From: Methanobrevibacter sp.
GTDB lineage: Archaea; Methanobacteriota; Methanobacteria; Methanobacteriales; Methanobacteriaceae
NCBI GenBank assembly: GCA_017434555.1
Contig: JAFRFB010000042.1
Location: 1-45,193 of the forward strand
DNA: 45,193 bases
Direction: 5' to 3'
The position numbers and the translations under genes were made by a program. The stretch's first letter is position 1; every line of letters starts with the position of its first letter. Shown here one piece after another: positions 1 to 28,467 of the stretch. Below the pieces are notes generated by a model. That model saw only the letters and a program-made list of their open reading frames with translations, ran no database searches and was not told the origin of the DNA.

Positions 1-2271
1 ATCATCGTATATCTTTAGTTGATTTTCTAAAATTAATTTCCTTAATTTTTCACCATATTTAGCTTTAGCAAATTTATTAGAACAAATGAATGCAAATATA
101 CCATTTTCTTTTAGAATTTTCAAACCTTTCTCAAAGAAATAAACATACAAATCAGCAACTCCCGTATAAGTTTTATAATGTTCTTTGAGATATGGTTTTA
201 GTTCTTTAATTTTTTCTTGTCTAACATATGGAGGATTTCCAATGACTATATCAAAACCAGGATTTTCTCCTTTAAATATTTCTGAAAATTCTAATTCCCA
301 TATAAAGAAGGGTTTAGCTTCAGAAAATTCAAACTCCCTTATTTCATCAATTAAATCATTTCTACCGATATCTTTAAGATAAGATTCAATAAATTCCCAT
401 TTCAATTGTTTAATTTCTTGTTTAAGTTCCTCTTTTCTATGTGGGCCACTTATGTCAAAATATTCTCTTTTTTTACGTTCTAATTCTTCAAATGCTCTTT
501 CATGAGGAGTCATAGATAATTTAGTTTGACTTGATCTAACAATTAAACTATCATCAAATAATTTAACATTATCATATCCATCAATTACTGAATTGCCGCA
601 CATGATTTGATTGTCTAGATTAGGTAATGGTCTAATCTGTTTTAAGTCTTCTTCATCAACAATTAATGATAGCCAAAATCTTAATTTAGTAACATCTGTT
701 GCTGATAATTCTACATCTACTCCATATAATGAATTCTCAATGGTTTCACGTTTTAAATCATACATATTAACGTTATCAATACCATGTAATAATCTTAGAA
801 TATATCTTGCTTTGACGATTTCATTCATCATACCTACTGGAAATGCTCCTGAACCTACAGCAGGGTCAATTACTTTAACTTTTTTAAGCAAATTTTCAAG
901 TTCATCAGAATGTTCTTTAATTGAATCAGGAAGTTCGATTCTTGTGTATTGTTTACCATTATATTTTTGTTTCTCTTCATTAGCACGGATAATTGAATTA
1001 ACAGCTAAATCACCTTTAGTGATAAATTCTCTTAAATCCTCTTCAGAAAGTCCAGAATTTGTGTTAAGATATGAAATTAAATTTTCCTGACACATGTAAT
1101 GTACAATATTACGTGGAGTATAAAATGCTCCTTTTGATTTTCTATCAGTAACTTCAAGTAGGTTTTCAAATACTTTTCCTAACATTTCGGGATCAACAGC
1201 TACTTCTTTTTCTAAAGGTTCATCCTCTTTTACAGTGAAATTAAATTCATCGAATGTATCTAGTATTTTAGAGAAAATAGAATTATTTAAAACTACCTCA
1301 GTTTTGACCCAATCATAATCATTAATTGGTTCAAACAATCCGCCATTTAAGAAAGGCACTCTATAACCAAACTTTGAATAATGATTATCTCTCACATCTT
1401 CAGACAAACCTTCATAAAATAAAGGTTCTAAAATATCATTAAAAAAGTTTTTATTATCAGATACGCATTGATTAAATATTTGTTTTAAAAAATTTTTAGG
1501 TCCAGTTCCCCATTCAGCATCTTTTTTGACACCTAACCAACCTTTTTTCTGTAAGAAATATATGAATACAATTTGTCCCATTAGTTTTTTAGCAAAATCA
1601 CTAGATTTAATATTCTTCTGTTCAAACTCTATGTTAACTTCAGAATCATTTTTTTTAACTTCATCTAATGAATCAACTAAATCTAAATATAATTCTTTAT
1701 ATTTATCAAAAAATTCATCAGTAACATTTTCAATACTGAAGGCTTGTTCTATGTCTTTTAATTGAATATTATCTTCATTACAAAGTAATTCTAAGAATTG
1801 GGATTGGCATGTGTGGTTTGGTTCATTAACTCCGACTAAGAATGAGTGTCTTCTTGGTGAACTTAATTTTTCACGAATCCCATTTTCATTAAATTCATAT
1901 TCTACTTTAACATGGGAAAATCTCCAATCATCGAGATTCGGTTCATAAAAAGCAACCAATGCAGAATCATATCTATCTTTAATTAAAGAAGCTATTAAGT
2001 TTCTTTGCATAGTTCTAGCACGATCCCTAGAAGATTGTTTGGATAATTCCACTACATACATTACAATTGAGTCGCCTGAATCATCTTGATAATCTCCCAA
2101 CATATAAACTTTATTTTCATAATTCCAAAATTCTTTTCGAATATATTCTATTTCTCTTGGACGTATATTTGATTTATTAAAAAGTTCTTTTAAGAAATTA
2201 ACATATTTATTTATATTAAATTCATTTTTAAATGTGTCTTCGAGTAAAGAAATTGCTGAAACTCTATCCAT
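1..2271 (-). CDS. Eco57I-class DNA methyltransferase/specificity protein, copy B (3' end outside window)
   Basis: About 757 codons are open from the ATG at 2271 to the left edge with no stop, so the gene is cut by the window and not visibly broken. It is a paralogue of the complete gene at 2291-5650 and collinear with it (constant offset 3379 bp from the start codon to about position 810). The SAM-binding motif DPAVGSGAFP (about 839-867) and the catalytic NPPY motif (about 231-244) mark an N6-adenine methyltransferase of the type IIG/Eco57I family (COG1002-like). After NPPYV the protein diverges from copy A (RQEKIKELKPYLKEH here), where target recognition begins. It starts 19 bp after the stop of copy A, in the same operon. 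I infer that it methylates or directs cutting at a different site from copy A. Confidence 0.85.
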   Translation of the reverse strand, partial: MDRVSAISLLEDTFKNEFNINKYVNFLKELFNKSNIRPREIEYIRKEFWNYENKVYMLGDYQDDSGDSIVMYVVELSKQSSRDRARTMQRNLIASLIKDRYDSALVAFYEPNLDDWRFSHVKVEYEFNENGIREKLSSPRRHSFLVGVNEPNHTCQSQFLELLCNEDNIQLKDIEQAFSIENVTDEFFDKYKELYLDLVDSLDEVKKNDSEVNIEFEQKNIKSSDFAKKLMGQIVFIYFLQKKGWLGVKKDAEWGTGPKNFLKQIFNQCVSDNKNFFNDILEPLFYEGLSEDVRDNHYSKFGYRVPFLNGGLFEPINDYDWVKTEVVLNNSIFSKILDTFDEFNFTVKEDEPLEKEVAVDPEMLGKVFENLLEVTDRKSKGAFYTPRNIVHYMCQENLISYLNTNSGLSEEDLREFITKGDLAVNSIIRANEEKQKYNGKQYTRIELPDSIKEHSDELENLLKKVKVIDPAVGSGAFPVGMMNEIVKARYILRLLHGIDNVNMYDLKRETIENSLYGVDVELSATDVTKLRFWLSLIVDEEDLKQIRPLPNLDNQIMCGNSVIDGYDNVKLFDDSLIVRSSQTKLSMTPHERAFEELERKKREYFDISGPHRKEELKQEIKQLKWEFIESYLKDIGRNDLIDEIREFEFSEAKPFFIWELEFSEIFKGENPGFDIVIGNPPYVRQEKIKELKPYLKEHYKTYTGVADLYVYFFEKGLKILKENGIFAFICSNKFAKAKYGEKLRKLILENQLKIYDD

Positions 2272-2290
2272 ATTATGTCTCCCAGTTTAA

Positions 2291-5200
2291 TTATAAAACA
2301 TTTTCAATTTTATTTATCTCATCTTCAGTGATACCATACAATTCATAAATTAAATAATTTAATTTGTTTTCAAATGATTCAATATTAGGAGATTCAGTAT
2401 TAGATTTATATTCTTCCAATATATTATCAACTAACATTATTATTTTGCGCTCTATATTCTCATCAACATCTGTGATTATTGGGATTTTTTGTAAGGGTTC
2501 TTTATCTAATTGATAGTTATTTCCTTGCATTTTTCCTTTATATTTAAGCCAAAATTGGATTAATTTTGAATTTAACAAACCAGTTAAAAACTTCAAATTA
2601 AATCTTTTTGAATTGATTATCATGAATGTCTGTGAAACATATGCATCAAAATTAGCATAGGAAAAAGTTGGAATTTCACATTTTCTTGCAATAATAATTT
2701 TTTCATTAGTAAAAATCTCTTCTTTTCTTGCTCTATGAAGTCCATATGGTTTATTGCTTGATGTATTAATACTTGAAAATTTATCTAAATGTGCTTTAAT
2801 ATTGGGATAATTAGAAATATAATTATCTATGTCTGATTTAGTATAAATTATCCATTTTTTATTATTCTTTGATGAATAATATCTTTTAAGCTCTTCTGTA
2901 GTGTAATAAGGTTTTATTAATTCAAGTTCATTGTCATTAAGATTTAATTGGGATAATTCTTCATCATTAAGTACAAAGATACCTTTCCCTACTTCATATT
3001 CATTGTTAAGTTTTTTTGCATTTCTTCCATTCAAATCTTCTTGTGGAGCTACAATCCCTTGAGATAATTCTTTATTTGTTAAATAAGTAATACTAGAATC
3101 AGATTGTATTTTTGAAATTATATCATGTATCTCGGAATTCATGAAACTGAAATAACTATCTTTATTCATTTTTCTATTAAAACCTGCATGGAATTTGTCC
3201 CATAGCTCATTAACATTATCAGAATATAAAAATGACTTTAAATGATCATCAGTAATTGTGTCAACTAATAGTTTAGAATATTTAAAATGGTAATTAGTAT
3301 CTGTTGAATCTTTTGTCATCAGGTATATCATTGTTTGGATGCTAGCAGTATCAAATGCTTTATAGTTACCAAAGTCAATGAAATATTTGAATTTAGCTTC
3401 GTCATTTACTTTATTTCTAAATTTTGAAGCACCGAAACTTGTAACCCAATTATTTGTAGCAATGAATGAAACTATCCCATTCTCTTTTACCAGGTCTAAA
3501 GCTCTACAACCAAACAAATACCATAAATCCATTTTTCCTTGATAATAAGGAGAGTTTCTAACACCATCAAATGCATTCTTATTTCTACCTTCTTTAACAT
3601 ATGGAGGATTACCAATTGCTATGTCAAATCCAGAATTCATTCCTTGGAATACTTCTGAAAATTCTAATTCCCATATAAAGAAAGGTTTAATTTCATCATA
3701 TTCATAGTGTTTAATTTCATTAAGTAACTCTGTTTTACCTAAATCTTTAAGATAAGTTTCAATAAAATCCCATTTAGATTCTCTTATTTTTTGTTTTAAA
3801 TCCTGTTTAACCTCAGGATCACTTTCTTCGAAATAGGCTTTTTTTATCACTTCTAATTCTTTAAAGATTCTTTCAGCAGCTGTAGCACCAAATCTTTGCT
3901 GTGCATCTTTCACAATAAATGTATCATCAAATAATCTAATATCTTTATAACTGTCTACAAGTGAATTTCCGCACATTATTTGATTATCTAAATTAGGGAG
4001 TGGGTTAATAACATTATTATCTTCTTCATCAACAATTAATGATAACCAAAACCTTAGTTTAGTAATGTCTGTAGCAGATAATTCTAAATCAACACCATAT
4101 AATGAATTCTCAATAGTTTCTTTTTTTAGTTTATATAAGTTAATATCTTCATCGTCAACCATATTTAATAGTCCTAAAATATATCTTGCTTTGACGATTT
4201 CATTCATCATACCTACTGGAAATGCTCCTGAACCTACAGCGGGGTCAATTACTTTAACTTTTTTAAGCAGTTTTTCTAGATTATTAGAATGTTCTTTGAT
4301 TGAATCAGGCAATTCAATTCGGGTAAATTGTTGTCCATTATATTTCTTTTTCTCCTCATTAGCTCGAATAATGGAATTTACAGCTAAATCTCCTTTTGTA
4401 ATGAAAATTCTCAAATCATCTTCAGAAACATCAGAGTTAGTACTCAAGTAAGAAATTAAAGATTCTTGGCACATAAAATGGACAATATGTCTAGGAGTGT
4501 AGAATGCTCCTTTTGATTGTCTATCTATGATTTCAAGTAGGTTTTCAAATACTTTTCCTAACATTTCGGGATCAACAGCTACTTCTTTTTCTAAAGGTTC
4601 ATCTTCTTTTATAGTAAAGTTAAATTGATCAAATGTATCTAATATTTCTTTAAAAATATTATTGTCAAGAATAACGTCTGTTTCAATCCAATCATAATTA
4701 TTTATGGGTTCAAAAAGACCTCCATTGAGGAAAGGAACTTTATATCCAAAATCAGAAAAATGATTGTCTAATTCTTTTTTTGAAAATCCTTCATAGAACA
4801 AATGTTCTAAAACATCATTAAAGAAGTTTTCACCTTTATTCATAGACTCATCATATATTCTTCTTAAAAAGTCTTTAGGTCCTGTGCCCCAGTCTTCATA
4901 TTCTTTGACACCTAACCAACCTTTTTTCTGTAAGAAATATATGAATACTAATTGTCCCATTAGTTTTTTAGCAAAATCACTAGATTCTATCTTTCTATCA
5001 TCAAATTCGGATTTAACTTTAGGATCTTTTTCTTTAACTTCTTCTAATGATTCAGTTAGTTGTAAAAATAGTTCTTTATATTTATTAAAGAATTCATCTG
5101 TAACATTTTCAATACTGAAGGCTTGTTCTATGTCTTTTAATTGAATATTGTCTTCATAACATAACAAATCTAAGAATTGGGATTGGCATGTGTGGTTTGG

Positions 5201-5650
5201 TTCATTAACTCCGACTAAGAATGAGTGTCTTCTTGGTGAACTTAATTTTTCACGAATCCCATTTTCATTAAATTCATATTCTACTTTAACATGGGAAAAT
5301 CTCCAATCTTCAAGATTCGGTTCATAAAAAGCAACCAATGCAGAATCATATCTATCTTTAATTAAAGAAGCTATTAAGTTTCTTTGCATAGTTCTAGCAC
5401 GATCCCTAGAAGATTGTTTAGTTAGTTCAATTGCATATAAAGCTATTGAATCACCAGAATCATCTTGATAATCACCTAAGATATAAACTTCATTTTCATA
5501 GCTCCAAAACTCTTTTCTAATCGCTTCAATGCTTCTTGGACGTATATTTGATTTATTAAAAAGTTCTTTTAAAAAATCAACATAATTATCCATATTGAAT
5601 TCATTTTTAAATGTTTTTTCTAAAAGAGATATTGCAGAATTTTTATCCAT
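2291..5650 (-). CDS. Eco57I-class DNA methyltransferase/specificity protein, copy A
   Basis: This 1119-aa protein is complete. An N-terminal part of about 350 aa (nuclease or scaffold type, containing YTPRHIVHFM near 390) precedes the methyltransferase core with DPAVGSGAFP (about residues 468-477) and NPPYV (about 679-683), the signature of N6-adenine methylation. The last ~400 residues should hold the target recognition domain. Length and layout fit the large type IIG-like methylases and PglX-like proteins, but no pglZ or brx genes are visible here, so BREX is not supported. The gene lies 17 bp downstream of the PLD-SNF2 helicase gene, and the two products probably form one restriction-modification complex. 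Stretches of the first half match copy B almost exactly at DNA level (see findings), which suggests recent duplication or gene conversion. Confidence 0.88.
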   Translation of the reverse strand: MDKNSAISLLEKTFKNEFNMDNYVDFLKELFNKSNIRPRSIEAIRKEFWSYENEVYILGDYQDDSGDSIALYAIELTKQSSRDRARTMQRNLIASLIKDRYDSALVAFYEPNLEDWRFSHVKVEYEFNENGIREKLSSPRRHSFLVGVNEPNHTCQSQFLDLLCYEDNIQLKDIEQAFSIENVTDEFFNKYKELFLQLTESLEEVKEKDPKVKSEFDDRKIESSDFAKKLMGQLVFIYFLQKKGWLGVKEYEDWGTGPKDFLRRIYDESMNKGENFFNDVLEHLFYEGFSKKELDNHFSDFGYKVPFLNGGLFEPINNYDWIETDVILDNNIFKEILDTFDQFNFTIKEDEPLEKEVAVDPEMLGKVFENLLEIIDRQSKGAFYTPRHIVHFMCQESLISYLSTNSDVSEDDLRIFITKGDLAVNSIIRANEEKKKYNGQQFTRIELPDSIKEHSNNLEKLLKKVKVIDPAVGSGAFPVGMMNEIVKARYILGLLNMVDDEDINLYKLKKETIENSLYGVDLELSATDITKLRFWLSLIVDEEDNNVINPLPNLDNQIMCGNSLVDSYKDIRLFDDTFIVKDAQQRFGATAAERIFKELEVIKKAYFEESDPEVKQDLKQKIRESKWDFIETYLKDLGKTELLNEIKHYEYDEIKPFFIWELEFSEVFQGMNSGFDIAIGNPPYVKEGRNKNAFDGVRNSPYYQGKMDLWYLFGCRALDLVKENGIVSFIATNNWVTSFGASKFRNKVNDEAKFKYFIDFGNYKAFDTASIQTMIYLMTKDSTDTNYHFKYSKLLVDTITDDHLKSFLYSDNVNELWDKFHAGFNRKMNKDSYFSFMNSEIHDIISKIQSDSSITYLTNKELSQGIVAPQEDLNGRNAKKLNNEYEVGKGIFVLNDEELSQLNLNDNELELIKPYYTTEELKRYYSSKNNKKWIIYTKSDIDNYISNYPNIKAHLDKFSSINTSSNKPYGLHRARKEEIFTNEKIIIARKCEIPTFSYANFDAYVSQTFMIINSKRFNLKFLTGLLNSKLIQFWLKYKGKMQGNNYQLDKEPLQKIPIITDVDENIERKIIMLVDNILEEYKSNTESPNIESFENKLNYLIYELYGITEDEINKIENVL

Positions 5651-8871: not shown

Positions 8872-9018
8872 TCATGAATTAATAATTATATAATATTATT
8901 TCTATGACTAACATTTTATAATGGTTATTATTTGTGTTTAATATTGTCAATATCTATTTTAATATTAATTTGAAAACAATATTTACTTAGCATATACAAT
9001 ATTAAACTAGTGATTAAA
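8872..9018. promoter_or_regulatory. Divergent promoter region with ATATTG palindrome
   Basis: This AT-rich gap lies between the restriction locus (minus) and the 9019 gene (plus). A perfect palindrome ATATTGTCAATAT sits at 8941-8953, and two related half sites (ACAATATT) follow near 8976 and 8996. TATA-like stretches face both ways. Operator function is inferred only. Confidence 0.4.
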
Positions 9019-9417
9019 ATGACCGAAGACAGATTTAGAAAATACGACGAACTTGAAGCTGATGAAAAAGAAGTCCTTGACGCTTTCAGACAGATGAAGC
9101 TAATGTCTGACTACAACAAATTCAAACTATACTCATATAAAGTCGAAGACTTAATTAACGATTACGAAAAGCTAAAACAACTCCGACAAGCAATCCAGGA
9201 AAAGTACTTTTCAATCTATGAGGAATTATTAAATGAAAACCTTATCGAGGGCGAGCTTGATGCCAGCGTCTGGGGAATCACAAGAGAAAATGAGGATGAA
9301 ACCTGGGATTCAGAACTCCAGCTTTTAAGTGAAATCAAAACTCATTTTGATATTGCCATCAAGATGATTGAGTCAGGTGATGCTGAGCAGATCATCATCG
9401 ATGAAGAGAATAAATAA
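9019..9417 (+). CDS. Acidic helical hypothetical protein
   Basis: This 132-aa protein is not recognised. It is rich in Glu, Lys and Leu, with long predicted helices (DYEKLKQLRQAIQEKYFSIY) and an acidic tail (IIIDEENK), so a coiled-coil or helical-bundle protein is likely. The ATG at 9019 is preferred over a GTG at 9010, because GTGAT at 9010-9014 serves as ribosome site. Codon use is richer in G/C-ending codons than the restriction genes beside it and resembles the capsid genes downstream, so it may be the left edge of the virus-derived element. It converges on the 9531-9800 gene, with a hairpin between the two. Confidence 0.65.
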   Translation: MTEDRFRKYDELEADEKEVLDAFRQMKLMSDYNKFKLYSYKVEDLINDYEKLKQLRQAIQEKYFSIYEELLNENLIEGELDASVWGITRENEDETWDSELQLLSEIKTHFDIAIKMIESGDAEQIIIDEENK

Positions 9418-9800: not shown

Positions 9801-9864
9801 TTTCATCACCAGTAATCATTATTTCATTTTCCGCTTATACACTTTTTGCCTAAAAAAGTAGCCA

Positions 9865-9887
9865 TTATATATAAATCTTTATATATT
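9865..9887 (+). promoter_or_regulatory. Capsid-module promoter with shared 18-bp element
   Basis: A TATA box TTATATATAAA lies at 9865-9875. It runs into the 18-bp sequence TATAAATCTTTATATATT (9870-9887), which contains the palindrome TATAAA-TC-TTTATA. The same 18 bp occurs at the early-operon promoter (27457-27474). The expected start site near 9900 leaves a leader of about 36-40 nt carrying AGGAG at 9921-9925. Confidence 0.6.
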
Positions 9888-9935
9888 ATAAATAATAAAT
9901 TAAGTAATATAAAAATTTACAGGAGAATATCAATA

Positions 9936-10424
9936 ATGGCAGATTCTATTATTTTACTTGAAGAGAGAAAAGAAGTAACTACTTTCATCCTGGATGAAGG
10001 TACAGTCACTCCAACCACAGTCACCACTCCGACAGGTGAAACTCCGGGCTATGAATATTCCGGTGCCAAAATCAAAGTGGATGACGCCGTAACATTATCA
10101 GATAACTCAGATATCGGAAAACCGACCGTCAAAAAATACACTGACGAAACCGAAGAAATCATCTTGGGAATTGCAGTTAACGATCCAATCACAATGACCG
10201 GCGGGAGAAGAAAAACCGCAATTTTAGTACTGGGTCATCTTTTCAGATTAAAACTTGCATCAGGGCTTTCAAACATTAACGTTAAAGACAGAATAGCTTT
10301 AACAAGTACTGGGGCTATCAAATCCGATGATGGAGAATACATTGCAATGCATCCGGTAGCCAGTTCAGATGACTACAACTACATTGAAGTGTTCAGACCA
10401 TATGACATAGGTGAGGCCCAATGA
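9936..10424 (+). CDS. Capsid cement/decoration-like protein
   Basis: A 162-aa protein. An upstream in-frame extension exists, but the ATG at 9936 has AGGAG about 10 nt before it and starts the plausible protein (MADSIILLEERKEV). The make-up (Thr/Val/Gly-rich beta segments, YEYSGAKIKVDDAVTLSDNS, ILGIAVNDP) resembles DUF2190/capsid-cement proteins of tailed viruses, which trimerise on the outside of HK97-fold shells. Its stop overlaps the start of the first capsid gene (ATGA at 10421-10424), which means translational coupling. Family assignment rests on resemblance and on position next to the capsid genes. Confidence 0.6.
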   Translation: MADSIILLEERKEVTTFILDEGTVTPTTVTTPTGETPGYEYSGAKIKVDDAVTLSDNSDIGKPTVKKYTDETEEIILGIAVNDPITMTGGRRKTAILVLGHLFRLKLASGLSNINVKDRIALTSTGAIKSDDGEYIAMHPVASSDDYNYIEVFRPYDIGEAQ

Positions 10425-11359
10425 TTACCAAGGCAAACGATACCAAAGTGCAGAATGAGGTAATTGCTCAAACCATTACTGATGAATCAGCTAAAAGATT
10501 AAGATTGGCAAGACTCTTTCCAAAACAGGAAATCAAAGAGAATTCCGATTACTACACTTACTTCCACCAGAACATCAATCTTGACGAGGCAATAAAAAAA
10601 GGACTTCTCGGTGAAGCAAAAGACCTTGCACCTGGAGCTTCTCTACAGGAATTAAACATAAGAAAACCTGTAACAGACACCATCAGCATCGACACAGTCG
10701 GCGGTGTCCTGAACGTTAACAAGGATGTCTTTGACAGCGACAGAATCTCATTTGAAGACCTTTTAGCAGATGTGGCAACACTAATTGCAAACAAAATCGA
10801 ATACAACATCTACGATACCATCGTCAACTCAGCAAAAGTTCCGACATACAATACCACACAGACCGAAGACACCATGGAGGCTTTCGGCCAGTTCGTCATC
10901 AAGGCACAGGAAGCATTCAAGGGCAAATCCGGAGCTGGTGCGGATTTGACAATAATGGTTGAATCATACAGAACATTAAGCTACATCAAACAATTGGCTT
11001 ACGTTAGCAATAAAGCAGTACAACCTGTAGAAGAGATACAGGCCTACTACGGTGTGGACAACATTGACTTTTTGGGAACAACCCATGCCGATGGAGGCTC
11101 AATGCTTGGAGAAAAAGATTACATTGCATTTGATATAAGAAATGCGCCACTCACCGTATTGTATTCCAAATCTTCAGGAACAACCGTTGCACCAATCACA
11201 TCCGATCCGGACATTGCAGATTTCTATCCAATAATTGAAATCATGAGAAAAGATATTTATGATGAGTTGCCACAGTATACAAAGCTGTTTATACAATCTA
11301 AGGTTGGAATATTGTTGAATAAACCACATCTTGCATTGACAGGTACATGCAGGCCATAA
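10421..11359 (+). CDS. HK97-type major capsid protein, copy 1
   Basis: A 312-aa protein. Features typical of encapsulin/HK97-like capsid proteins of archaeal and bacterial tailed viruses include an N-terminal helical arm, a beta-rich stretch (VTDTISIDTVGGVLNVN), a middle spine helix region and a C-terminal VEEIQAYYGVDNIDFLGTT followed by a closing strand and YTKLFIQSKVG. No delta domain or protease cleavage site can be named. It is about half identical to the next gene over its full length (shared LGEAKDLAPGA, LQELN, YYGVDNID, FYPIIE). ATGA coupling to the upstream gene and a GGTGAT site for the next one make a tight operon. Confidence 0.75.
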   Translation: MITKANDTKVQNEVIAQTITDESAKRLRLARLFPKQEIKENSDYYTYFHQNINLDEAIKKGLLGEAKDLAPGASLQELNIRKPVTDTISIDTVGGVLNVNKDVFDSDRISFEDLLADVATLIANKIEYNIYDTIVNSAKVPTYNTTQTEDTMEAFGQFVIKAQEAFKGKSGAGADLTIMVESYRTLSYIKQLAYVSNKAVQPVEEIQAYYGVDNIDFLGTTHADGGSMLGEKDYIAFDIRNAPLTVLYSKSSGTTVAPITSDPDIADFYPIIEIMRKDIYDELPQYTKLFIQSKVGILLNKPHLALTGTCRP

Positions 11360-11370
11360 AGGTGATATTA

Positions 11371-12297
11371 ATGTTGACTAAAGGAAATAATGCTAAAGTT
11401 CAGGATGAAGTGATGGCACAGATTGTTGCAGACACTTCAGCAAAATGGATGAAATTCACAAGACTCATTCCAAAGCAGGAAATCGAGGAAAACTCCCAGT
11501 ACTATACCTACATGTCCCAGAGAGTAAACATCGATGAGATAATCGACAAGGGGCAGTTGGGTGAGGCAAAAGACATTGCACCCGGTGCTACTTTACAGGA
11601 GCTCAACGTCAGAAAGCCTGTAAGCGATACAGTATCTATCGAAACAATAGGAGGAGTGTTGAATGTCTCAGCGCAGATGCTTGATTCCAATTTAATCAGT
11701 GTTCATGACATGCTTCAGGATGTTGGAATACTTATCGGAAGAAGTATTGAGCAGGCTGCCATCGGCATGATTTTAAACAACCCTAAAGTTGCAACATATA
11801 ATTATTCCGCAGGCGATGACAGCGGTGTTACAATACTTAAGGCACAGGAAAAGTTCAAGGAATCAGCAGGAAGCTTCTGTAACTTAAACAGTATGGCCGT
11901 TAACTATAAATCTTTAACTACTCTAAAGTCAGACATGTTTGCTGCCAACAGGCAGGTCGAACCGGTTGAAGCTATTAAATCATATTATGGTGTTGACAAT
12001 ATTGATTTGTTGGGAACTGCAGTCTGTGACGGGGGATCAGAAATAGCTGATAAGACCTACATCGGTATGGACTACCAGAACCCCGGAATGAAATTGTTAT
12101 ACTCAAGAATTTCAGGAACAACAGTAGCGCCGTTAGGTCCTGACGGGGATGTATACGATTTCTATCCTCTGATTGAGTTCATGAGAAAGGACATCCGTGA
12201 TGAGCTGCCGATGTATACAAAGCTCTTCATACTCACCTCAGTGGGTGTCCTGATGAACGCTCCAAACAGAATCATCAAGGGTAAGTTCAGAGCATAG
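11371..12297 (+). CDS. HK97-type major capsid protein, copy 2
   Basis: A 308-aa protein, paralogous to copy 1 along its whole length (KVQDEVMAQ, PKQEIEENSQYYTY, LGEAKDIAPGATLQELN, YYGVDNIDLLGT). The ATG at 11371 is preferred because GGTGAT at 11361-11366 precedes it; an upstream in-frame ATG at 11347 lies inside copy 1. Both copies are intact and of similar length, so neither looks like a decaying duplicate. A mixed shell, or shells of two sizes, is possible. A hairpin terminator follows at 12321-12345. Confidence 0.75.
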   Translation: MLTKGNNAKVQDEVMAQIVADTSAKWMKFTRLIPKQEIEENSQYYTYMSQRVNIDEIIDKGQLGEAKDIAPGATLQELNVRKPVSDTVSIETIGGVLNVSAQMLDSNLISVHDMLQDVGILIGRSIEQAAIGMILNNPKVATYNYSAGDDSGVTILKAQEKFKESAGSFCNLNSMAVNYKSLTTLKSDMFAANRQVEPVEAIKSYYGVDNIDLLGTAVCDGGSEIADKTYIGMDYQNPGMKLLYSRISGTTVAPLGPDGDVYDFYPLIEFMRKDIRDELPMYTKLFILTSVGVLMNAPNRIIKGKFRA

Positions 12298-12320
12298 AAC
12301 CATATTTTATCTCCTAAATA

Positions 12321-12366
12321 TTAGTGAAGCTTCAGGCTTCACTAACTCTTCTGCTCAAATTTTTTT
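12321..12366 (+). terminator. Hairpin and T-tract after the capsid genes
   Basis: A perfect 10-bp stem TTAGTGAAGC / GCTTCACTAA (12321-12330, 12336-12345) encloses a 5-nt loop, and a T-run follows near 12358-12366. It lies 24 bp after the second capsid gene and would end the capsid transcript. Confidence 0.65.
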
Positions 12367-12404
12367 ATGCAATAATCGCCATATTATATATCAGAGGATA
12401 TAAA

Positions 12405-12809
12405 ATGAAATTAATATTAGATTCTGAAAATTCACATCCGACAACAATAACAGTCAAAGGAAAAGAAATAACATTGCTCTTGATTGAATCCAGCATATTA
12501 ATTGATTCATCACAGATAGCCAGGATTTTTGACAAAAAGGAAAAGACAGTAGCAACCAAAGTCCAGAAATCCAAACTGGAGAAATACGAAACAGAAAACG
12601 TTAAGTTACTCAAAAATTACGGACTGATGCATCCGGAAGCAATAAAACCAAGACCATTCTATGATTTAAGGCAGATGCTTGAAGGGCCGGCTTATTATTA
12701 CTTCAAAAAAGAGGATGAAACTGATTTGATTGATGTTATTGTCAGAGTTGCCATCGGAAAGCACCGTGAGTGGATTCACAACAGAAGTCTTGAAAAATCC
12801 GGTTTTTAA
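12405..12809 (+). CDS. Hypothetical protein, possible virus-encoded regulator
   Basis: A 134-aa protein that starts at the ATG at 12405 behind a GAGG site (12394-12397). The stretch ILIDSSQIARIFDKKEKTV looks like a helix-turn-helix or an antirepressor-like DNA-binding start, followed by a basic linker and a compact C-terminal part (YYYFKKEDETDLIDVIVRVA). This is a guess from pattern only; no family is recognised. It lies between the capsid terminator and the lysin gene, in the same direction, with base composition like its neighbours. A small regulator of late genes or a minor virion protein are both possible. Confidence 0.55.
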   Translation: MKLILDSENSHPTTITVKGKEITLLLIESSILIDSSQIARIFDKKEKTVATKVQKSKLEKYETENVKLLKNYGLMHPEAIKPRPFYDLRQMLEGPAYYYFKKEDETDLIDVIVRVAIGKHREWIHNRSLEKSGF

Positions 12810-12990
12810 AACGCTTTCATCTATATTCCATTTTTAAAAGCAAATCGATATTTGTGATGATTGCCGTTAATGTAAATAGTGATTCATTAAATTATTTTTA
12901 AAAATGTTTCTGTCACTTTTATTGATGCTATCTTTATGAAATCATGGGGTGTTTCGCCACCTGTGGGACACACTATTTTTTATTATATAA

Positions 12991-13000
12991 TTTATATAAA
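12991..13000 (+). promoter_or_regulatory. TATA box of the lysin gene
   Basis: TTTATATAAA at 12991-13000 lies about 40 bp before the lysin ATG and predicts a start site around 13022-13026. The leader would be only 10-14 nt and no Shine-Dalgarno site is seen, so near-leaderless translation is likely. Confidence 0.5.
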
Positions 13001-13035
13001 AAATATAATAAATTAGATAATACAAATAATATAAT

Positions 13036-13845
13036 ATGTCAAATGAAAATATCAGCTGGACAAGCTTTTGCCAGGCCATGAATTCAATCGGCTACTGGCT
13101 CATCCAGAACAAAAAGAAATACAAGAAACGTGACCATTACCAGATATTGACATTGAAAGGTAACTGCAAGGACATTGAAAAGAAAGCTAAAAAGCTCGGA
13201 ACTGACAAGCTCGTTGCAATGTATGTAATGGCCTTGATTAAGGATAACAAGTCTTTGGATTTCCTTCCGAATTATGTCATGCTTAAAAATGGCGAGAAAA
13301 TCGATAAGGCTGAATATGTGGACATGGCCATAAGAACAGAAGCATACATCAGAGCAAACGGGAGATTGCCTGCAATAGTCTACAGGAAATCAACACTGCC
13401 GGATTATAAAGATTCCACAATGAAGCTGTTTGTGAAAACCTTTAATTTCAAGGGAAATACGATTGACGAAGCTTTAGCCGTCATTTCAAAAGTCAAATTG
13501 TACAGTAAATACTTTGATTCACAAAAGACAGATAAGAAAACAATAACGGATGCTAAGGCAGGTAAAGGTTCCAACTGCGTTGACTGGGGACAGGTCTATT
13601 ATCGCATTGCCAAAAGCTTAGGCTATGAGGTGCAGTTTGTTCATGTCAGATGCAGAGTCTCAGGAACCGGCCATATCAGATTGAGACTGAAACATAAAAA
13701 GCACACTGGAGGAAACTGGATTAATCGTGATCCTGCTGCAGTGGCTGATACTACATCCGGAAATGTCAGGGCAATCTGGTGTGAAGATGGATATCTAATA
13801 GCTATTGACCCATCATGGATTTTTACAGATTTGTATAGCAGTTAA
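13036..13845 (+). CDS. Pseudomurein endoisopeptidase (PeiW/PeiR-like lysin)
   Basis: A 269-aa protein. The C-terminal half is a transglutaminase-like cysteine peptidase with the expected triad: C181 in SNCVDWGQ, H213 in GTGHIRLRL and D232 in NRDPAAV. Near residues 93-115, MAIRTEAYIRANGRLPAIVY matches a pseudomurein-binding repeat (xxNGRLPxxV type); only one such repeat is clear. Enzymes of this family (PeiW, PeiP, PeiR) cut the peptide cross-link of pseudomurein and lyse methanogen cells from inside. No signal peptide or holin is seen beside it. It points to a host with a pseudomurein wall and to a virus origin of this block. Confidence 0.85.
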   Translation: MSNENISWTSFCQAMNSIGYWLIQNKKKYKKRDHYQILTLKGNCKDIEKKAKKLGTDKLVAMYVMALIKDNKSLDFLPNYVMLKNGEKIDKAEYVDMAIRTEAYIRANGRLPAIVYRKSTLPDYKDSTMKLFVKTFNFKGNTIDEALAVISKVKLYSKYFDSQKTDKKTITDAKAGKGSNCVDWGQVYYRIAKSLGYEVQFVHVRCRVSGTGHIRLRLKHKKHTGGNWINRDPAAVADTTSGNVRAIWCEDGYLIAIDPSWIFTDLYSS

Positions 13846-15881: not shown

Positions 15882-16421
15882 CTATATAAAATCTCTTTTT
15901 GATCTTGCTTCTATGCCGAATCTTTTATACATTTCTCTTGTATCCTCATTGGATTCAATAGCCAGATATTTGTTCGGATCATCACCATGAGTTGGCAAAA
16001 CTGCCTTTTCAAGCCAATACCTTTTAAGTTCAGGCGGCCTTTTACCAAAATTCCAATAGGATTCTTCAATTTTTAAATCAGTATTTTCTTCAATATGTTT
16101 AAGAGAATCAAAAGAGGTATAATAAGGACTTGCTGTGATTAGAATCACATAGTTATCCTTGATTTTATTTACCAGTTCATGTTCATACTGGCGATTATAA
16201 ATCTTTTGTGGTAATCTGTCATGCCTTATTTTCCAGGAATTGGAAATAAGAGTGTAGTTTAAATCCAAAAGAATGATTTTATCTTTTGGAATTGGAAGCT
16301 TATCCTTTAAAATTATTTCTTTTCCTGTTTCTTCAATTAGTTTCTGGCCACAGTTCAGGCAATATTTTTCTTTGGCTCTGTTTTCTGTCTGGCATGCAGG
16401 ACATGTATTATACTCAATCAT
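15882..16421 (-). CDS. Zinc-ribbon plus HAD-like domain protein
   Basis: About 179 aa from the ATG at 16421, which overlaps the upstream stop (ATGATTGA); an ATG further upstream is also possible. The N-terminus carries a zinc ribbon (CPAC then CLNC). A HAD-like fold follows: ILLDLNYTLI resembles motif I, but the second Asp of DxDxT is Asn, and ILITAS fits motif II. The change may reduce phosphatase activity, so a binding or altered catalytic role is possible. The C-terminal part (YLAIESNEDTREMYKRFG) fits HAD motif IV loosely. It is the second gene in the nuclease operon. Confidence 0.6.
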   Translation of the reverse strand: MIEYNTCPACQTENRAKEKYCLNCGQKLIEETGKEIILKDKLPIPKDKIILLDLNYTLISNSWKIRHDRLPQKIYNRQYEHELVNKIKDNYVILITASPYYTSFDSLKHIEENTDLKIEESYWNFGKRPPELKRYWLEKAVLPTHGDDPNKYLAIESNEDTREMYKRFGIEARSKRDFI

Positions 16422-17232
16422 CTTTATCATCATCTTTTTGTAAATAAACCTGTCTGAATAAATCTATAGCATAGTCAATTTCATCTTTGGAGTTTAATAT
16501 TAATTCATAATTTGCTTTTGCACCTGTTGAGATATTTGAAATGTCTCTTGTTTTATTTTCAATGTCTTTAAGGTCATCTGTATGGTAATGGATTTTTGCC
16601 GGATTATCAAGGCGGAAAATGCATGCTATCTGATTATTTGCCCTGAAAGATACGGCTTTAACTAAATATATTAATTTTATATCATCAAATTCATCCATAA
16701 CTTTTTCTTTAAAGTTAAGGTATAATTCACATGTTTCCTGAGGCTTGTCGGATAATATTTTTTCTTCTGTTAATTCCAGCTCTTCAGGTTCTGTCATTAA
16801 CTCTTTGGTTTCACCTGTTTTCATGTTTTCATAAATCACTTTACCATCATCATATAGCGATATTTCCCAAATCTCAAAAGGGTCATTGGTATTGCTGATT
16901 TGGTTTGGAGTGAATTCCGGTCCAATAATCATTATATGTGTATTTTCAAACTCAATGTCATTTCTGTTATCTAAACGGCCTGCAAAGTATTCTGAATTAT
17001 TTTTAACTAAATCATAATACTCCTGTGCCTGATTAATAACATTTAAATTCAATTCATTTTTATATTCGATGATTACGAAGGCTTTTGTTTTTTCATCGAA
17101 TGCAAGATTGTCTATTCTTAATCTGTTAAGCTGTATTTCTGAAGCGACAAATTCAAGGCCAAATAAGTTTTTTAAATTCCTTTCGGTTAATTTATGAAGA
17201 GTATACTCGCTGTCAAATTTTATCTTTTTCAT
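16414..17232 (-). CDS. PD-(D/E)XK-like protein with DUF5655-type C-terminus
   Basis: About 272 aa from the ATG at 17232 (MKKIKF); in-frame starts up to 17256 exist and no ribosome site decides between them. The first ~70 residues hold LRIDNLAF (D41) and FVIIEYKN (E56, K58), the D...ExK core of restriction-endonuclease-like folds. The C-terminal ~110 residues (ELYLNFKEKV, YLVKAVSFRANNQIACIFRL) resemble DUF5655, which often follows such nuclease domains. It is the first gene of the four-gene operon. The divergent DUF4268 gene and repeat element A lie upstream. Probable DNA nuclease; target unknown. Confidence 0.65.
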   Translation of the reverse strand: MKKIKFDSEYTLHKLTERNLKNLFGLEFVASEIQLNRLRIDNLAFDEKTKAFVIIEYKNELNLNVINQAQEYYDLVKNNSEYFAGRLDNRNDIEFENTHIMIIGPEFTPNQISNTNDPFEIWEISLYDDGKVIYENMKTGETKELMTEPEELELTEEKILSDKPQETCELYLNFKEKVMDEFDDIKLIYLVKAVSFRANNQIACIFRLDNPAKIHYHTDDLKDIENKTRDISNISTGAKANYELILNSKDEIDYAIDLFRQVYLQKDDDKDD

Positions 17233-17316
17233 ATGAATCATTTTATGAATTATCATATTTAAGCTTCATTATACTCACAAATTGCAAACATATTATTTTA
17301 AAAGGTTAAATCAACA

Positions 17317-17422: not shown

Positions 17423-17524
17423 CAAAGTGTTGCTCACAATATTAAAATAAAAATAATACATTCAATTTAATTAACATTAACATCAATAATATAACAAGGA
17501 ACATTTACTCGTGGTGTGAATATT

Positions 17525-18457
17525 ATGAAATTGGGTAAATTAGAAAAAATTAAAGATTTGCGTTCTGTTTGGAAACATGAAGCAACTGATTTCACTACAT
17601 GGTTATCAGATGAAGAAAACTTAGCCACTTTAGGTGAAGAAATAGGTATTGATATTGAATTACTGTCCACTGAAGCAAAAACTGGTTCATTCAGTACAGA
17701 TATTCTTGCAGTTGAGGCAAATACCAATAATAAAATTATAATTGAAAATCAGCTTGAAGCAACAGACCATGACCACTTGGGTAAAATTATTACTTATGCT
17801 TCAGGTCATGACGCTAAAACTATTATTTGGATTGTTAAAGAAGCACGTGAAGAACATCGTCAAGCTATTGACTGGCTAAATGAACATACTGATGAAGAAA
17901 TAAATATTTTCTTATGTAAAATCGAATTATGGAAAATTGGCAATTCAGAGATAGCTCCTAAATTCCAAGTAGTTTCCAGTCCAAATAATTGGAGTAAAAC
18001 AGTTAAAAGAAGTTTGGATAATGAGATGAGTGCAACTGCAATGCTGCAATATGATTATTGGACTAAAGTTAAAGACGAGATTGATAAAAATTATCCAACG
18101 TTTAATTCTAGAAAACCTATAGGGCAACATTGGTATGATATAGCTATTGGCAGTAGCTTAGCAAATATTAGTCTTCATGTTATTGCTAGAAGGAATGAAA
18201 TAAAAGTTGTACTTTGGATTCCAGACAGCAAAGAATTATTTGATTATCTTTATAATATGAAAGATGAAATCGAATCTCAATTAGGATATGAGTTAGATTG
18301 GATTAGTTCAGATAATAATAAGTCATCAAGCATTGTAATAGTTAAAAATGCAGATGTTCATAATGAATTTAAGTGGGATGAGAATATTAAATGGCATCTT
18401 ACTAAAGCATCTGAATTTTATGAGGCATTTTCAGAAAGAGTTAAAAATTTTAAATAA
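17525..18457 (+). CDS. DUF4268 / restriction-endonuclease-like protein
   Basis: A 310-aa protein. The N-terminal domain has SFSTDILAVE (D59) and IIIENQLEATDHDHLGK (E74-x-Q76), which is the ExQ form of the PD-(D/E)XK core, known from similar nucleases. The order is typical of DUF4268 proteins: EATDHDHLGK, then TIIWIVKEA, then the C-terminal WYDIAIG and VVLWI stretch. The start at 17525 is preceded by GGTGTGA; a GTG at 17516 lies within that site. It is transcribed away from the nuclease operon and followed by the SIMPL gene. Many DUF4268 genes stand alone in defence islands; function is not known for certain. Confidence 0.75.
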   Translation: MKLGKLEKIKDLRSVWKHEATDFTTWLSDEENLATLGEEIGIDIELLSTEAKTGSFSTDILAVEANTNNKIIIENQLEATDHDHLGKIITYASGHDAKTIIWIVKEAREEHRQAIDWLNEHTDEEINIFLCKIELWKIGNSEIAPKFQVVSSPNNWSKTVKRSLDNEMSATAMLQYDYWTKVKDEIDKNYPTFNSRKPIGQHWYDIAIGSSLANISLHVIARRNEIKVVLWIPDSKELFDYLYNMKDEIESQLGYELDWISSDNNKSSSIVIVKNADVHNEFKWDENIKWHLTKASEFYEAFSERVKNFK

Positions 18458-22883: not shown

Positions 22884-23201
22884 TTATTTATTTTTCAACA
22901 ATTCTCTTCTGCCTCGCCATACCAACTGCCTTTGCCTTCTTCTTAATTCTTTATACTCATAATACATCTGTGAAGTGACATGTCCGTGCAATCTTCGATA
23001 CTCATCTATTTTAACAATTTCAGCCTGCACAATAGCTGCTTCTCCTTCATGCCAGCAGTAATACGGATGATGGCAGGCAACATCATTTTTTAAGCCCAGT
23101 CCGGTTTTGCAGTTGTTGCAGTAATCAACAAACCACAGTTCCTCTTCCCTTTCCCGCTTTTCGGCTTCAGCTTCAATTATCTGCTCTCTTATAGATGTCA
23201 T
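22884..23201 (-). CDS. Small Cys/His-rich hypothetical protein
   Basis: A 105-aa protein from the ATG at 23201; a longer reading frame to 23243 starts in a poor context. A CNNC pair, then CHHPYYC about 15 residues later, suggests a small metal-binding (zinc finger or HNH-like) domain. The C-terminus is strongly basic (ELRRRQRQLVWRGRRELL), fitting nucleic-acid binding. HNH catalytic spacing is not convincing. It converges with the SDR gene and lies downstream of the early operon. Small zinc proteins of this kind are frequent in archaeal viruses, but the role is unknown. Confidence 0.6.
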   Translation of the reverse strand: MTSIREQIIEAEAEKREREEELWFVDYCNNCKTGLGLKNDVACHHPYYCWHEGEAAIVQAEIVKIDEYRRLHGHVTSQMYYEYKELRRRQRQLVWRGRRELLKNK

Positions 23202-23354
23202 AACAATCAGTTTTATAAATACCATAAATACTATGGATACCATTGAATACTTTTTGGATGGTTTTTTTAAATACTCCTTAAAATCCTTTAAATCAAAAAA
23301 TAAGAATTTTAAGAAAGTTTCTTGAAAATGATTTTTTAAAATACCGAATTTTTC
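23202..23354. other. AT-rich gap, nothing clear
   Basis: Between the small Cys/His gene and the hairpin, only AT-rich sequence with runs of T and possible TATA-like stretches is seen. The whole gene-free gap to 23564 also contains the structured element and the iteron-like repeat listed separately. Confidence 0.5.
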
Positions 23355-23401
23355 CAGGGTATGCGGGAGGACTTGTCAAAGTTACCTCACGCTTATCCCT
23401 G
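23355..23401. other. GC-rich hairpin near replication gene
   Basis: The outer stem CAGGG/CCCTG (23355-23359, 23397-23401) and inner stem GCGGGAGG/CCTCACGC with one mismatch (23363-23370, 23385-23392) enclose a 14-nt loop. It is far more GC-rich than its surroundings. Candidate origin, packaging or RNA structure. Confidence 0.55.
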
Positions 23402-23522
23402 AAAGTTAAGTTTTTTTGAAAAAACCATGCCCTCAAAACCAATGCAGAATCATTTAATTAACCTGAAAACGATTGAAAGGAATTTTTTAAAAAAACTTTC
23501 ACAAAAGTTTTTATAAGTTTTC

Positions 23523-23575
23523 ATGGTTTTTCAGGTATTTTGGTTTTTATGGTATTTCAGGTTTTTATGGTTTTT
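23523..23575. repeat. Two 26-27-bp tandem repeats (iteron-like)
   Basis: The copies at 23523-23548 and 23549-23575 share the pattern ATGGTnTTTCAGGTnTTT, then a TGGTTTTT end. The second overlaps the stop codon of the replication gene. Together with the hairpin 120 bp away this resembles a replication origin arrangement; function is inferred. Confidence 0.55.
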
Positions 23576-25259
23576 TAACAATCCATTTCGGTTTTTCTAC
23601 CTCACTGTCAAAGTTCATTATACTTAACCCCTCAACAAATTTATCTTCCTTCATAATGTCTACAACCCATTCGCCAATCTCATAGCAGATATCCTCGTAT
23701 ATCGAATCGTCAATGTGCTTTAAATCATAGTTGATGGATATGACCTCACTTTTGGACAGGTCATATATATTCGATCTTCCTGATTGGGCAGTAACCTGGA
23801 GAAATCCGTTGTTTGCCAGTTCATATATGTATTTCTTAACAGACCCTTTGCTCAGTTCAAGATTTTGAAGTGCGAAGTAATCGTTGGTTGTAATTCCCAT
23901 GTTCAGCACTTCCCTGTCCTTGCTCATCCTCCACTCATCCATATTGTTTCTGATGTCATTTAAAACCTCAACGGCCTTTGGCGATAGGTTTGCAGATATG
24001 CTCTCCTTATAGGGTTTTAAGAGACTCATAAACAGCTGCACATCTGCAATGTTTGTAAGGATTATCTTTTTGCCGTCAACTTCATAGACTTCATGATTAT
24101 AGTAGTTCAGTGCAGTCACTGTCTTTAGAAGTCCGTTGAACTTGTCAAAATCCCTTTTATAGAAAGCTGAGTTTTTAAGGAAGTTAATGACAAAGTGGAC
24201 ATATGGATTTATCACTACAATCTCTTTAAAGACTTCCTTTAGATGCAGAAGCATGTAGGGTATGAGTTCTGCTTCCTTTTCATATTTCTTTAAGGTGTTG
24301 TAGCTTTTGCCGTGCTTGAATTCAAGTGCACTGTTTCTTCGGTTGAAGATTTTCTTGTTGTCCATTCTTGGAGTTATGAAAATGCTTCTGCTCATCTCCT
24401 GCTCATCAAATGTATGATTGGGCACTGTGGTATAAGTTAAGCATGGTCTTCCTTCAAGTTTCAAATCCTTGACTTCCCATCCTCCTTCACCGTCAGGTAT
24501 GCTTAACGGTTTGTTTAGAAATCCGTCGGACTGCAGTTCCTTCATGAGATTTTTAGACTCTTCCATGAATTCATGGTCCTTGCTTCCGCCCATATCACCG
24601 TAATTGACAATTTTGCCGTCATAGAAATACTTGTCAGTTTTGGCACGGTTAAAGAGTGCCGCTTCAGTGATTTTCTTTTCATTGACAACAAAACGTTTTG
24701 GAATCAGTTTCAGTGCTGTTTCCTGGATGTGGGATTTGCCGCTGCTTGCTTCACCAAGACATATCACGGATACCGGATTTCCCAAAACGACCTGTCCGGC
24801 AAATACTGTAAAGGCATACATTATGTTGTTGCGCTCACCTGCCGTAAACCATTCAACAAGGCTTCCGATATAAATCAACGGGCAGCTTAAGGATTGCAGT
24901 TTGGAGATAGCTTGCCTTAACTTTGCAGTGTCCTTTTCCTGTTCGGCCTGCTTTTTGTCAGCTATTTCCTGCTCGATTACTGAAAGTTCATTTTCATAAT
25001 TGAGCTGCAATAGCTGTTTCAGTTCTGCGAATTGGGCATTAATCTTTCTTGGTTCCAGTTCGCCTTTGGGATCCATAATCTGTTTGAACTGTTTTGCGAC
25101 ATTACTCTGTGAAGATAATGTAGCTGGAGATTTGTTTAAGTATTCTCCAATTTTATTACCTGATTTGCTTTTAAATACATATGTAACATTATCTACATTC
25201 TTTCTGTTGATAATGAGGGTTATTGTATCTTTTGTTGGTAATTCAGCTACATTACTCAT
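23565..25259 (-). CDS. AAA+ replication ATPase/helicase candidate
   Basis: A 564-aa protein. A coiled-coil region (about 85-120) precedes a P-loop domain with Walker A GEASSGKSH (169-177) and a Walker-B-like IVNYGDMGG (217-225). Further conserved-looking parts are TYTTVPNHTFDEQEMSRSIF (sensor/arginine-finger area). The C-terminal ~120 residues look like a winged helix (TTNDYFALQNLELSKGSVKK). The layout fits virus or plasmid replicative helicases related to MCM or SF3. It is the last gene of the early operon, with a GGAG site before the ATG. The exact family is not certain; a transcription-coupled ATPase is less likely. Confidence 0.65.
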   Translation of the reverse strand: MSNVAELPTKDTITLIINRKNVDNVTYVFKSKSGNKIGEYLNKSPATLSSQSNVAKQFKQIMDPKGELEPRKINAQFAELKQLLQLNYENELSVIEQEIADKKQAEQEKDTAKLRQAISKLQSLSCPLIYIGSLVEWFTAGERNNIMYAFTVFAGQVVLGNPVSVICLGEASSGKSHIQETALKLIPKRFVVNEKKITEAALFNRAKTDKYFYDGKIVNYGDMGGSKDHEFMEESKNLMKELQSDGFLNKPLSIPDGEGGWEVKDLKLEGRPCLTYTTVPNHTFDEQEMSRSIFITPRMDNKKIFNRRNSALEFKHGKSYNTLKKYEKEAELIPYMLLHLKEVFKEIVVINPYVHFVINFLKNSAFYKRDFDKFNGLLKTVTALNYYNHEVYEVDGKKIILTNIADVQLFMSLLKPYKESISANLSPKAVEVLNDIRNNMDEWRMSKDREVLNMGITTNDYFALQNLELSKGSVKKYIYELANNGFLQVTAQSGRSNIYDLSKSEVISINYDLKHIDDSIYEDICYEIGEWVVDIMKEDKFVEGLSIMNFDSEVEKPKWIVKKP

Positions 25260-25272
25260 TTGTTAACTCCGT

Positions 25273-25773
25273 CTAGACTTGGACATCTTTTACAATGAAA
25301 CTGTAGTAGACATATGTTCCGGTTTTCTCTTTTACCTGAATTGTCATTTCGGATAATCTGTTAACGAATTCCCTGTATTCTGCAAGGTTGACGTTTCTGA
25401 CAATGTTTGACCTTCCGACTGAACCTGCATTTTCCAATTCTAAAATGGAAGTGATAAAATCAAAGAGTACACTTCCTTTTCTGATGTCTTTGTGGTCATC
25501 GCCGTCGTTTTTGAGGTTTACGTTGATTTCAATGTAGAGCTGGTCTTCATCCTGGAAGATGAATAGCTTGAATCTGTTTACGGTTTTTTCTTCACCGTCA
25601 TAGTCAAAGGTGTATGATGTAACAGATGACATTTGTGGTCTGCCTCTTAATAAGGTTCCGTCTTCAAAGTCTTTTAGTTCCGCTTTTTCATAACCTTCCG
25701 GGATTTCAACAATCTCTTCATAATCCAATTCTGTACCTGTAAATATTGTTTGTTTAGTATTTTCAAAACTCAT
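25273..25773 (-). CDS. Hypothetical protein, possible ssDNA-binding role
   Basis: A 166-aa acidic protein with alternating beta segments (SYTFDYDGEEKTVNRFKLFI, LYIEINVNL, YVYYSFIVKDV), which would suit an OB-fold, but I do not recognise it. AGGAGAGA precedes the ATG. Its place between a possible strand-annealing protein and the replication ATPase is where virus single-strand-binding proteins are often found, so this role is inferred from context only. Confidence 0.6.
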   Translation of the reverse strand: MSFENTKQTIFTGTELDYEEIVEIPEGYEKAELKDFEDGTLLRGRPQMSSVTSYTFDYDGEEKTVNRFKLFIFQDEDQLYIEINVNLKNDGDDHKDIRKGSVLFDFITSILELENAGSVGRSNIVRNVNLAEYREFVNRLSEMTIQVKEKTGTYVYYSFIVKDVQV

Positions 25774-25806
25774 TTTGATTCTCTCCTAAAAAATATTAAA
25801 GAGGAT

Positions 25807-26364: not shown

Positions 26365-26375
26365 TATTATCACCT

Positions 26376-26730: not shown

Positions 26731-26731
26731 A

Positions 26732-28454: not shown

Positions 28455-28467
28455 ATGGGATGATACT

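Follow-up and report, generated by a model that had tools for sequence, protein, structure and literature searches.

The locus

Contig C49 of a Methanobrevibacter sp. genome (G000; GenBank assembly GCA_017434555.1, 3.15 Mb in 146 contigs) makes up, over its full 45,193 nucleotides (nt), the window analysed here. At its left end lie two tandem genes, A and B, coding for Eco57I-type adenine methyltransferases, both behind a single gene, H, that joins a PLD nuclease to an SNF2-type helicase. A putative switch of the DNA recognition domain of A, in what appears to be a provirus cargo slot, is the subject of this work. Position 1 cuts copy A, so that the left edge of the window is an assembly end. 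The genes are as follows.

1-45193: contig C49 of genome G000, the whole window; position 1 is the contig end
5668-8871, minus strand: H, PLD (HKD) nuclease and SNF2-type helicase, 1067 amino acids (aa), first gene of the unit
2291-5650, minus strand: copy B, full-length Eco57I-type adenine methyltransferase with a TaqI-like specificity domain, 1119 aa
1-2271, minus strand: copy A, Eco57I-type adenine methyltransferase, 757 aa present, the contig end cutting its recognition half shortly past its start

The sequence of H displays HKD-type (HSKLY...GSSNFT), GLGKT and DESH motifs. In copy B, methyltransferase and specificity domain make a single chain (Eco57I and TaqI_C), and its structure model (mean pLDDT 79.7) matches, in a structure search, N6-methyladenine (m6A) methyltransferases with C-terminal target recognition domains (TRDs), namely CamA, PglX/BrxX, M.BseCI and MmeI, which are unsurprising neighbours. 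In the m6A methyltransferase fold, the region that follows the NPPY motif comprises the last catalytic strands and the TRD. The N-domain of A and B is modelled with strands and helices, and inspection by eye of 26 aligned relatives found no conserved D...ExK columns, so that DNA cleavage most likely comes from H. Gene order makes it plausible that this one helicase serves two DNA specificities.

A search of G000 for a third methyltransferase copy returned only A and B; a 61-nt match on contig C34 was rejected as an unrelated small open reading frame (ORF). Relatives of B were collected at 67 loci in other genomes. Because many of these are short contigs, the 30 of 67 with a PLD/helicase match in the fetched flanks (28 of them with the helicase gene upstream of the methyltransferase) are a lower bound, and none of the 34 loci carrying the N-part had a second copy of it. 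The pairing of H with a methyltransferase thus appears widespread, and the tandem pair unusual. In genome G118 (locus L117, 8503-17387) the PLD-helicase is split in two frames, the second of 1903 aa with helicase and recognition-domain matches, followed by a 469-aa frame with PLD and recognition-domain matches.

A mosaic of the two copies

The first-pass annotation saw in A and B a duplication followed by gene conversion in the catalytic half and by divergence of target recognition. The first of these two claims is supported. Divergence is far from uniform: in windows of 50 codons, first-half identity ranges from 0.99 (proportion of synonymous differences, pS, 0.03) to 0.69 (pS 0.56), and pS rises to 0.73 outside that windowed range. 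The offset of 3379 nt between the copies is constant, as reported, from the start codon up to a two-codon gap near 776-780. The most similar patches are these.

1791-2040, minus strand: patch of A read as converted, 2 differences from B 5170-5419
5170-5419, minus strand: patch of B read as converted, partner of A 1791-2040
1153-1224, minus strand: second identical run in A, 72 nt, equal to B 4532-4603

The two differences over 250 nt agree with the earlier description. That account also had 1153-1226 exactly matching 4532-4605; near-identity stands there, exactness does not, with 1 difference in 74 nt. The first 1494 nt hold 239 mismatches between A and B, a longest identical run of 140 nt and a cleanest 250-nt window of 2 mismatches; permuting the 239 mismatches reached that run in 0 of 20,000 rounds and that window value in 0 of 20,000, and a stricter permutation, limited to codons with unchanged amino acids, reached the longest identical run (45) in 11 of 20,000. 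Over aa 76-165 of A, pS between A and B is 0.09, against 0.61 for each of them with the copy of genome G008. Outside the patch, A and B are about as diverged as the pairs with G008, and their pS is lower also at aa 166-250 (0.21). In a tree of the N-part (aa 1-560, 15 sequences) B groups with G008 (support 100/100), inside a clade with A (99/98), and a grouping of A and B alone is rejected (approximately unbiased test, p-AU, 6e-8). The copies are thus older than their near-identical patch, which supports homogenisation of the N-terminal halves by gene conversion.

A recognition half of other origin

After NPPY the proteins diverge, as had been noted, to an aa identity of 0.33-0.49, and identity is already down to 0.42-0.58 at aa 550-625 of A, ahead of that motif. 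Over aa 696-757, A has an identity of 0.33 to B and of 0.91-0.94 to the Methanobrevibacter genomes G061, G078 and G099; in blocks of aa 1-560 its identity is 0.63-0.95 to G061, 0.36-0.80 to G078 and G099, and 0.61-0.96 to B. A tree of the recognition start (14 sequences) places A with G061, G078 and G099 (87/98, not starred) and rejects A, B and G008 together (p-AU 7e-7). Constraining A with G061, G078 and G099 in the N-part tree costs 19.4 log units, a weaker rejection (p-AU 0.035). Judged from these trees, the recognition half of A is a separate module of other origin, and divergence of target recognition as drift after duplication, the second claim, finds no support.

The remainder of A and other recognition pieces were sought in G000, and none was found beyond two contig ends, described below, and B. 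In the viral collection no relative of A, of an A-type recognition half or of the exact site pattern given below was found; it does hold two relatives (50-56%) of the integrase that we now describe.

A junction shared with a second contig

The module starts at a place that A shares with another contig of its own genome, C115.

1-141, minus strand: start of the recognition half of A, identical over 141 nt to the end of C115 (13632-13772, plus strand)
125-141, minus strand: proposed recombination site TATTTCTTTGAGAAAGG, coding YFFEKG (A aa about 711), at which A and C115 diverge

The overlap came to light when G000 was searched with the recognition half of a relative: the final 123 nt of A recur at the end of C115, and the exact overlap is 141 nt. 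The breakpoint sequence, TATTTCTTTGARAAAGG, codes YFFEKG, and in G030 there is a T-to-C change in its first bases. On C115 the shared 141 nt are preceded, in place of the catalytic part, by a 335-aa ORF of the integrase (tyrosine recombinase) family (12613-13620, minus strand), a gene that points away from them. The same order of integrase, recognition start and contig end is repeated on contig C25 of G099 and contig C272 of G030. For G099, comparison of the copy beside the integrase with the one on the methyltransferase side gives 82% identity over 460 nt; both are open, with pS 0.46 and a nonsynonymous proportion (pN) of 0.126 over 152 codons. On the integrase side, the shared codons of G000 and G099 are immediately preceded by an in-frame stop, so that these pieces would be silent; the piece of G030 has no stop that close. 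Since the last catalytic strands and the TRD follow NPPY, a swap at YFFEKG would keep the cofactor pocket and replace the reading head.

In G061 and G078, too, contigs break off after this junction, 57 and 52 nt beyond it respectively; the chance that at least 3 of 10 genomes would have a contig end there is 0.0017, a post hoc figure. Contigs also end elsewhere in the methyltransferase gene (G004, G008, G099, G118, G130), and these ends are not counted for a switch. Another 335-aa ORF, beside the methyltransferase end on L064, was rejected as a recombinase because it reads by eye as a primase small subunit, so that G008 is not an example of the layout.

All this might have a static explanation: A and B would be tandem duplicates, A having received its recognition domain by old recombination, nothing would switch, and the C115 overlap would be a leftover fragment. 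We regard this as unlikely. It would account for the single assembled joint of A's catalytic part and for the lack of a second N-part copy in the 67 loci of other genomes (34 with the N-part), where most relatives look single and stable. It fits poorly with 141 nt left unchanged between fragment and gene beside an open recombinase frame, with the same layout in three genomes, and with the two modules of G099, whose differences show a pN far lower than pS.

The recombinases and their proposed site

The nearest relatives of the recombinases of G000, G099 and G030 are found in G087, G045 and G101 (60-64%), where they adjoin HsdS-like sequence with HFYEKIG-type codons (seen by eye for G087 and G101, by Pfam Methylase_S for G045). 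All six specificity-adjacent recombinases form a single clade in a tree of 32 sequences (97/99), and the five of them present in one alignment are all without the C-terminal tail of three others aligned. No specificity gene was seen, by eye, upstream of five more distant members of the family.

Each of the six recombinase frames has the site TTT[CT]T[AT]TGA[AG]AA at 9-57 bp upstream, a descriptive count since the pattern was derived from these same sequences; the site also stands at the same codons of A, G061, G078 and G099. It is expected 1.25 times per 45-kb window; ours holds two further, probably chance, copies, and the coding strand of B has none. The hsdS region of G045, on its contig C1, has four copies, two per strand, and a fully assembled pair of opposed hsdS genes with an inverted repeat of 494 nt (90%).

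Could general homologous recombination, of the kind seen between A and B, swap the recognition domains, the nearby recombinase being irrelevant? A and B do display homologous gene conversion; the breakpoint, for its part, falls in three genomes at one and the same short site, and a recombinase of the dedicated clade lies 9-57 bp away. We hold this explanation to be very improbable.

The provirus slot

Further along the window come genes of a provirus.

9010-9417, plus strand: small gene bordering the cargo slot; a homologue (66%) adjoins the type III cargo on contig C136 of G000
9846-12809, plus strand: late genes of the provirus, across the slot, with 86-95% homologues on G045 contig C1 and G000 contig C136 for 9936-12809
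13036-13845, plus strand: pseudomurein endoisopeptidase-like protein (PMBR, Peptidase_C71)

Genes of C115 and those at 9.5-12.8 kb of the window flank one slot on contig C1 of G045, where it contains a type I system with its recombinase, and the same flank order is found on C136, around a type III system; there, a homologue of the window gene at 9019 stands between cargo and late genes. This synteny would set C115 on one side and the window on the other side of a single slot, located between the fibre genes and the late genes in a family of Methanobrevibacter proviruses; A and the recognition start on the recombinase side would then face each other. The two recognition starts, on separate contigs, are by the same synteny in inverted orientation.

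A survey with a late gene as query gave matches in 31 of 138 family genomes, from which 32 stretches were taken, leaving aside main matches in G068, G031 and G053 (less than 700 bp from the contig start) and partial matches in G078 and G089. Both slot borders are present in 17 of the 32, which makes 20 with G045 C1, C136 and the virus record L261, found through a late gene in the viral collection and bearing a cytosine methyltransferase in the slot. Methyltransferases or restriction systems are the cargo of 15 of the 20 slots: seven cytosine-5, four type III (two identical), two type I and two Eco57I-type; the remaining slots hold other PADLOC candidates (two) or small unknown ORFs (one), or are empty (two). 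Seven of the 15 have the support of hidden Markov models (L220, C136, L261, L273, L278, L284, L289), the cargo of L282 is 100% identical to that of C136, and the other seven were assigned by tblastn matches of 25-82% to these cargo proteins. Judged from gene content, then, the slot holds different predicted restriction systems in related proviruses.

The identical type III cargo of L282 (contig C21) and L257/L258 (contig C136) occupies the same slot on two contigs of one genome, G000. Elsewhere in the window, PADLOC lists candidate defence proteins PDC-S11 (17516-18457), PDC-S18 (16414-17256) and PDC-S01 (29072-30529). The genes and integrase at 22884-32512 are collinear with 51-58 kb of G045 C1, and inverted with respect to the late genes (9.5-12.8 kb); this block may be a second provirus or a rearrangement.

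The slot bears on yet another explanation, namely that the junction is the attachment site of a mobile element, with an integrase-bearing element inserted in, or excised from, the methyltransferase gene, the assembly holding intact and occupied forms. A core at the element's edge beside the integrase is the usual layout, and relatives of the recombinase are common in Methanobrevibacter (99 of 138 family genomes, E<=1e-20), many of them presumably integrases of elements. By contrast, the synteny with G045 C1 and C136 places the C115 recombinase inside the provirus, between fibre and late genes; a different integrase, of another clade (window 31394-32512, related to that at 51154 of G045 C1), lies outside the slot; close relatives sit at HsdS sequence, once with fully assembled inverted hsdS copies; and the two recognition starts of G099, being 82% identical, are two modules rather than two states of one. 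An attachment site is, in our estimate, decidedly unlikely.

How the parts may act together

The reading we favour, and consider rather probable, is that of an integrase-linked inversion switch of the recognition domain of A, with B fixed, in a provirus cargo slot. H, B and A would form a restriction-modification unit in that slot, H acting as nuclease-helicase, B and A as methyltransferases with different recognition domains. The catalytic part of A would run to the YFFEKG site, with an invertible segment beyond it; across the slot, a second copy of the site, inverted, would lie just upstream of the gene for the dedicated tyrosine recombinase, and beyond it a recognition-domain start without start codon. 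The segment would be inverted when the two sites recombine, which would supply A with a different recognition domain and leave that of B as it is. The motif at which B protects and directs would then stay the same, and that of A would switch.

Several points weigh against such a switch. No inverted state is seen in the assembly. C49 runs on into the recognition start, and the joint of the catalytic part to this module is the only one that the assembly keeps. The inner segment is absent from the G000 assembly, where only the shared first 141 nt of the recognition start are seen, so that a second, different recognition domain in this genome is putative; two different specificity segments are present in G099 and at the hsdS genes of G045. 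No contig end on the recombinase side that would match was found in G061 and G078, whose genomes are incomplete (75% and 82%). The recombinase matches Pfam integrase models below cut-off, and two of four scanned clade members have no match. Finally, 141 is an assembler k-mer length; a test for general 141-nt overlap of contig ends, made at the other end of C115, found no overlap with another contig.

We also put forward, with somewhat less than even confidence, that this virus-borne recombinase clade is a general specificity shuffler acting on HsdS as well as on Eco57I-type C-terminal halves. Its target would be a short stretch of coding sequence (F-F/Y-E-K-x-G codons) that two unrelated kinds of specificity protein have in common, so that various restriction systems could enter the provirus slot and become switchable; here, the constant methyltransferase B and the switching A would share one helicase-nuclease.

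A counterpart in Bacteroidia

A survey for second recognition copies, covering 64 of the 67 loci (12 of 13 family loci), found partial ones in L028, L029, L041, L044, L066, L067 and L117, of which L044 was examined closely. In this 5.3-kb contig of Bacteroidia bacterium MS495-25, two different recognition halves stand tail to tail (225-1514, plus strand; 1626-2699, minus strand), each starting in a 57-bp perfect inverted repeat that codes ...GFDIVIGNPPY, with a serine recombinase at 2841-3434 (PF00239, 1.6e-34). The contig has no catalytic part and its left flank is, by eye, transposase-like, so that L044 may be a silent pair. Since its recombinase belongs to another superfamily than that of Methanobrevibacter, the arrangement probably arose twice.

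L067, similar in sequence to L044, has two opposed recognition halves that reach its contig ends. Short methyltransferase C-terminal remnants lie 3' of the gene in L041 (14205-14303, 33 aa) and L028/L029 (8680-8766, 29 aa); these remnants, in Campylobacter coli and two metagenome genomes, are possible traces of recognition-domain exchange.

Comparison with known systems

Defence hotspots in prophages and their satellites, which Rousset is said to have described in 2022, resemble the present slot in having exchangeable defence cargo at one place of the provirus; unlike them, the slot belongs to an archaeal provirus and is filled mainly by restriction-modification systems. Like DISARM, with its DrmD helicase and DrmMI methyltransferase, the unit combines an SNF2 helicase with an adenine methyltransferase, but here the PLD is fused to the helicase. 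H reaches 131 bits with NF038317 (DrmD), far below the cut-off of 610; no separate DrmA, DrmB or DrmC was found among the 15 window proteins scanned with PADLOC, the DrmD and DrmA matches of H reflecting helicase-domain similarity. Among these same 15 proteins there was no match to the BREX partners PglZ, BrxC and BrxL. The modelled fold of B matches the PglX/BrxX structures of BREX, yet B is paired with a PLD-SNF2 helicase. The best PADLOC models are C3a139 'HKD+Snf2' for H (1.9e-42) and REase_MTase_IIG PDLC03596 for A and B (9.8e-161 and 1.5e-151), which are protein models and not a described switching system. B shares with type IIG enzymes the union of methyltransferase and specificity domain in a single chain; unlike them, A and B show no sign of a fused active nuclease domain (D...ExK by eye, 26 relatives). 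Type ISP enzymes combine nuclease, helicase, methyltransferase and TRD within a single polypeptide, from which our unit differs in that H is encoded apart from A and B.

As far as the available portions of the literature go, printed inverting restriction loci are mainly of type I, with separate HsdS subunits, in bacteria. The hsdS inversion loci of S. pneumoniae, S. suis and E. faecalis and the B. fragilis shufflons have alternative recognition domains, inverted repeats and an adjacent tyrosine recombinase or integrase (PMC7394358, PMC3090145), and the words 'archaea' and 'methanogen' are absent from the accessible part of the former. Our locus would likewise have alternative recognition domains, inverted repeats and an adjoining tyrosine recombinase/integrase; it differs in its archaeal host and in the part that would switch, here the C-terminal half of an Eco57I-type methyltransferase made as one chain, where those loci use an HsdS subunit of its own. 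A one-chain analogue in BREX is mentioned for Lactobacillus rhamnosus, with phase variation of PglX pairs (PMC7513527), and defence genes in archaeal proviruses have been reported (PMC11705971). No inverting recognition domain is described for a PLD-SNF2/Eco57I system or an archaeal provirus in the portions available of a literature with few subscription journals, which is no proof of absence (PMC7513527, PMC8371274, PMC12839542, PMC7394358, PMC11705971, PMC13076061, PMC3090145).

Here the same logic would operate in an Eco57I methyltransferase paired with a PLD-helicase, in the provirus of a methanogen; in a sister provirus this clade of recombinases serves a type I HsdS, and Bacteroidia have a version with a serine recombinase. 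This suggests that one-chain methyltransferases have evolved switchable recognition repeatedly. If the switch is real, it would explain why several genome assemblies break in the methyltransferase gene; the system could change the sequence that it guards against, and the provirus could thereby vary its host's barrier to rival viruses.

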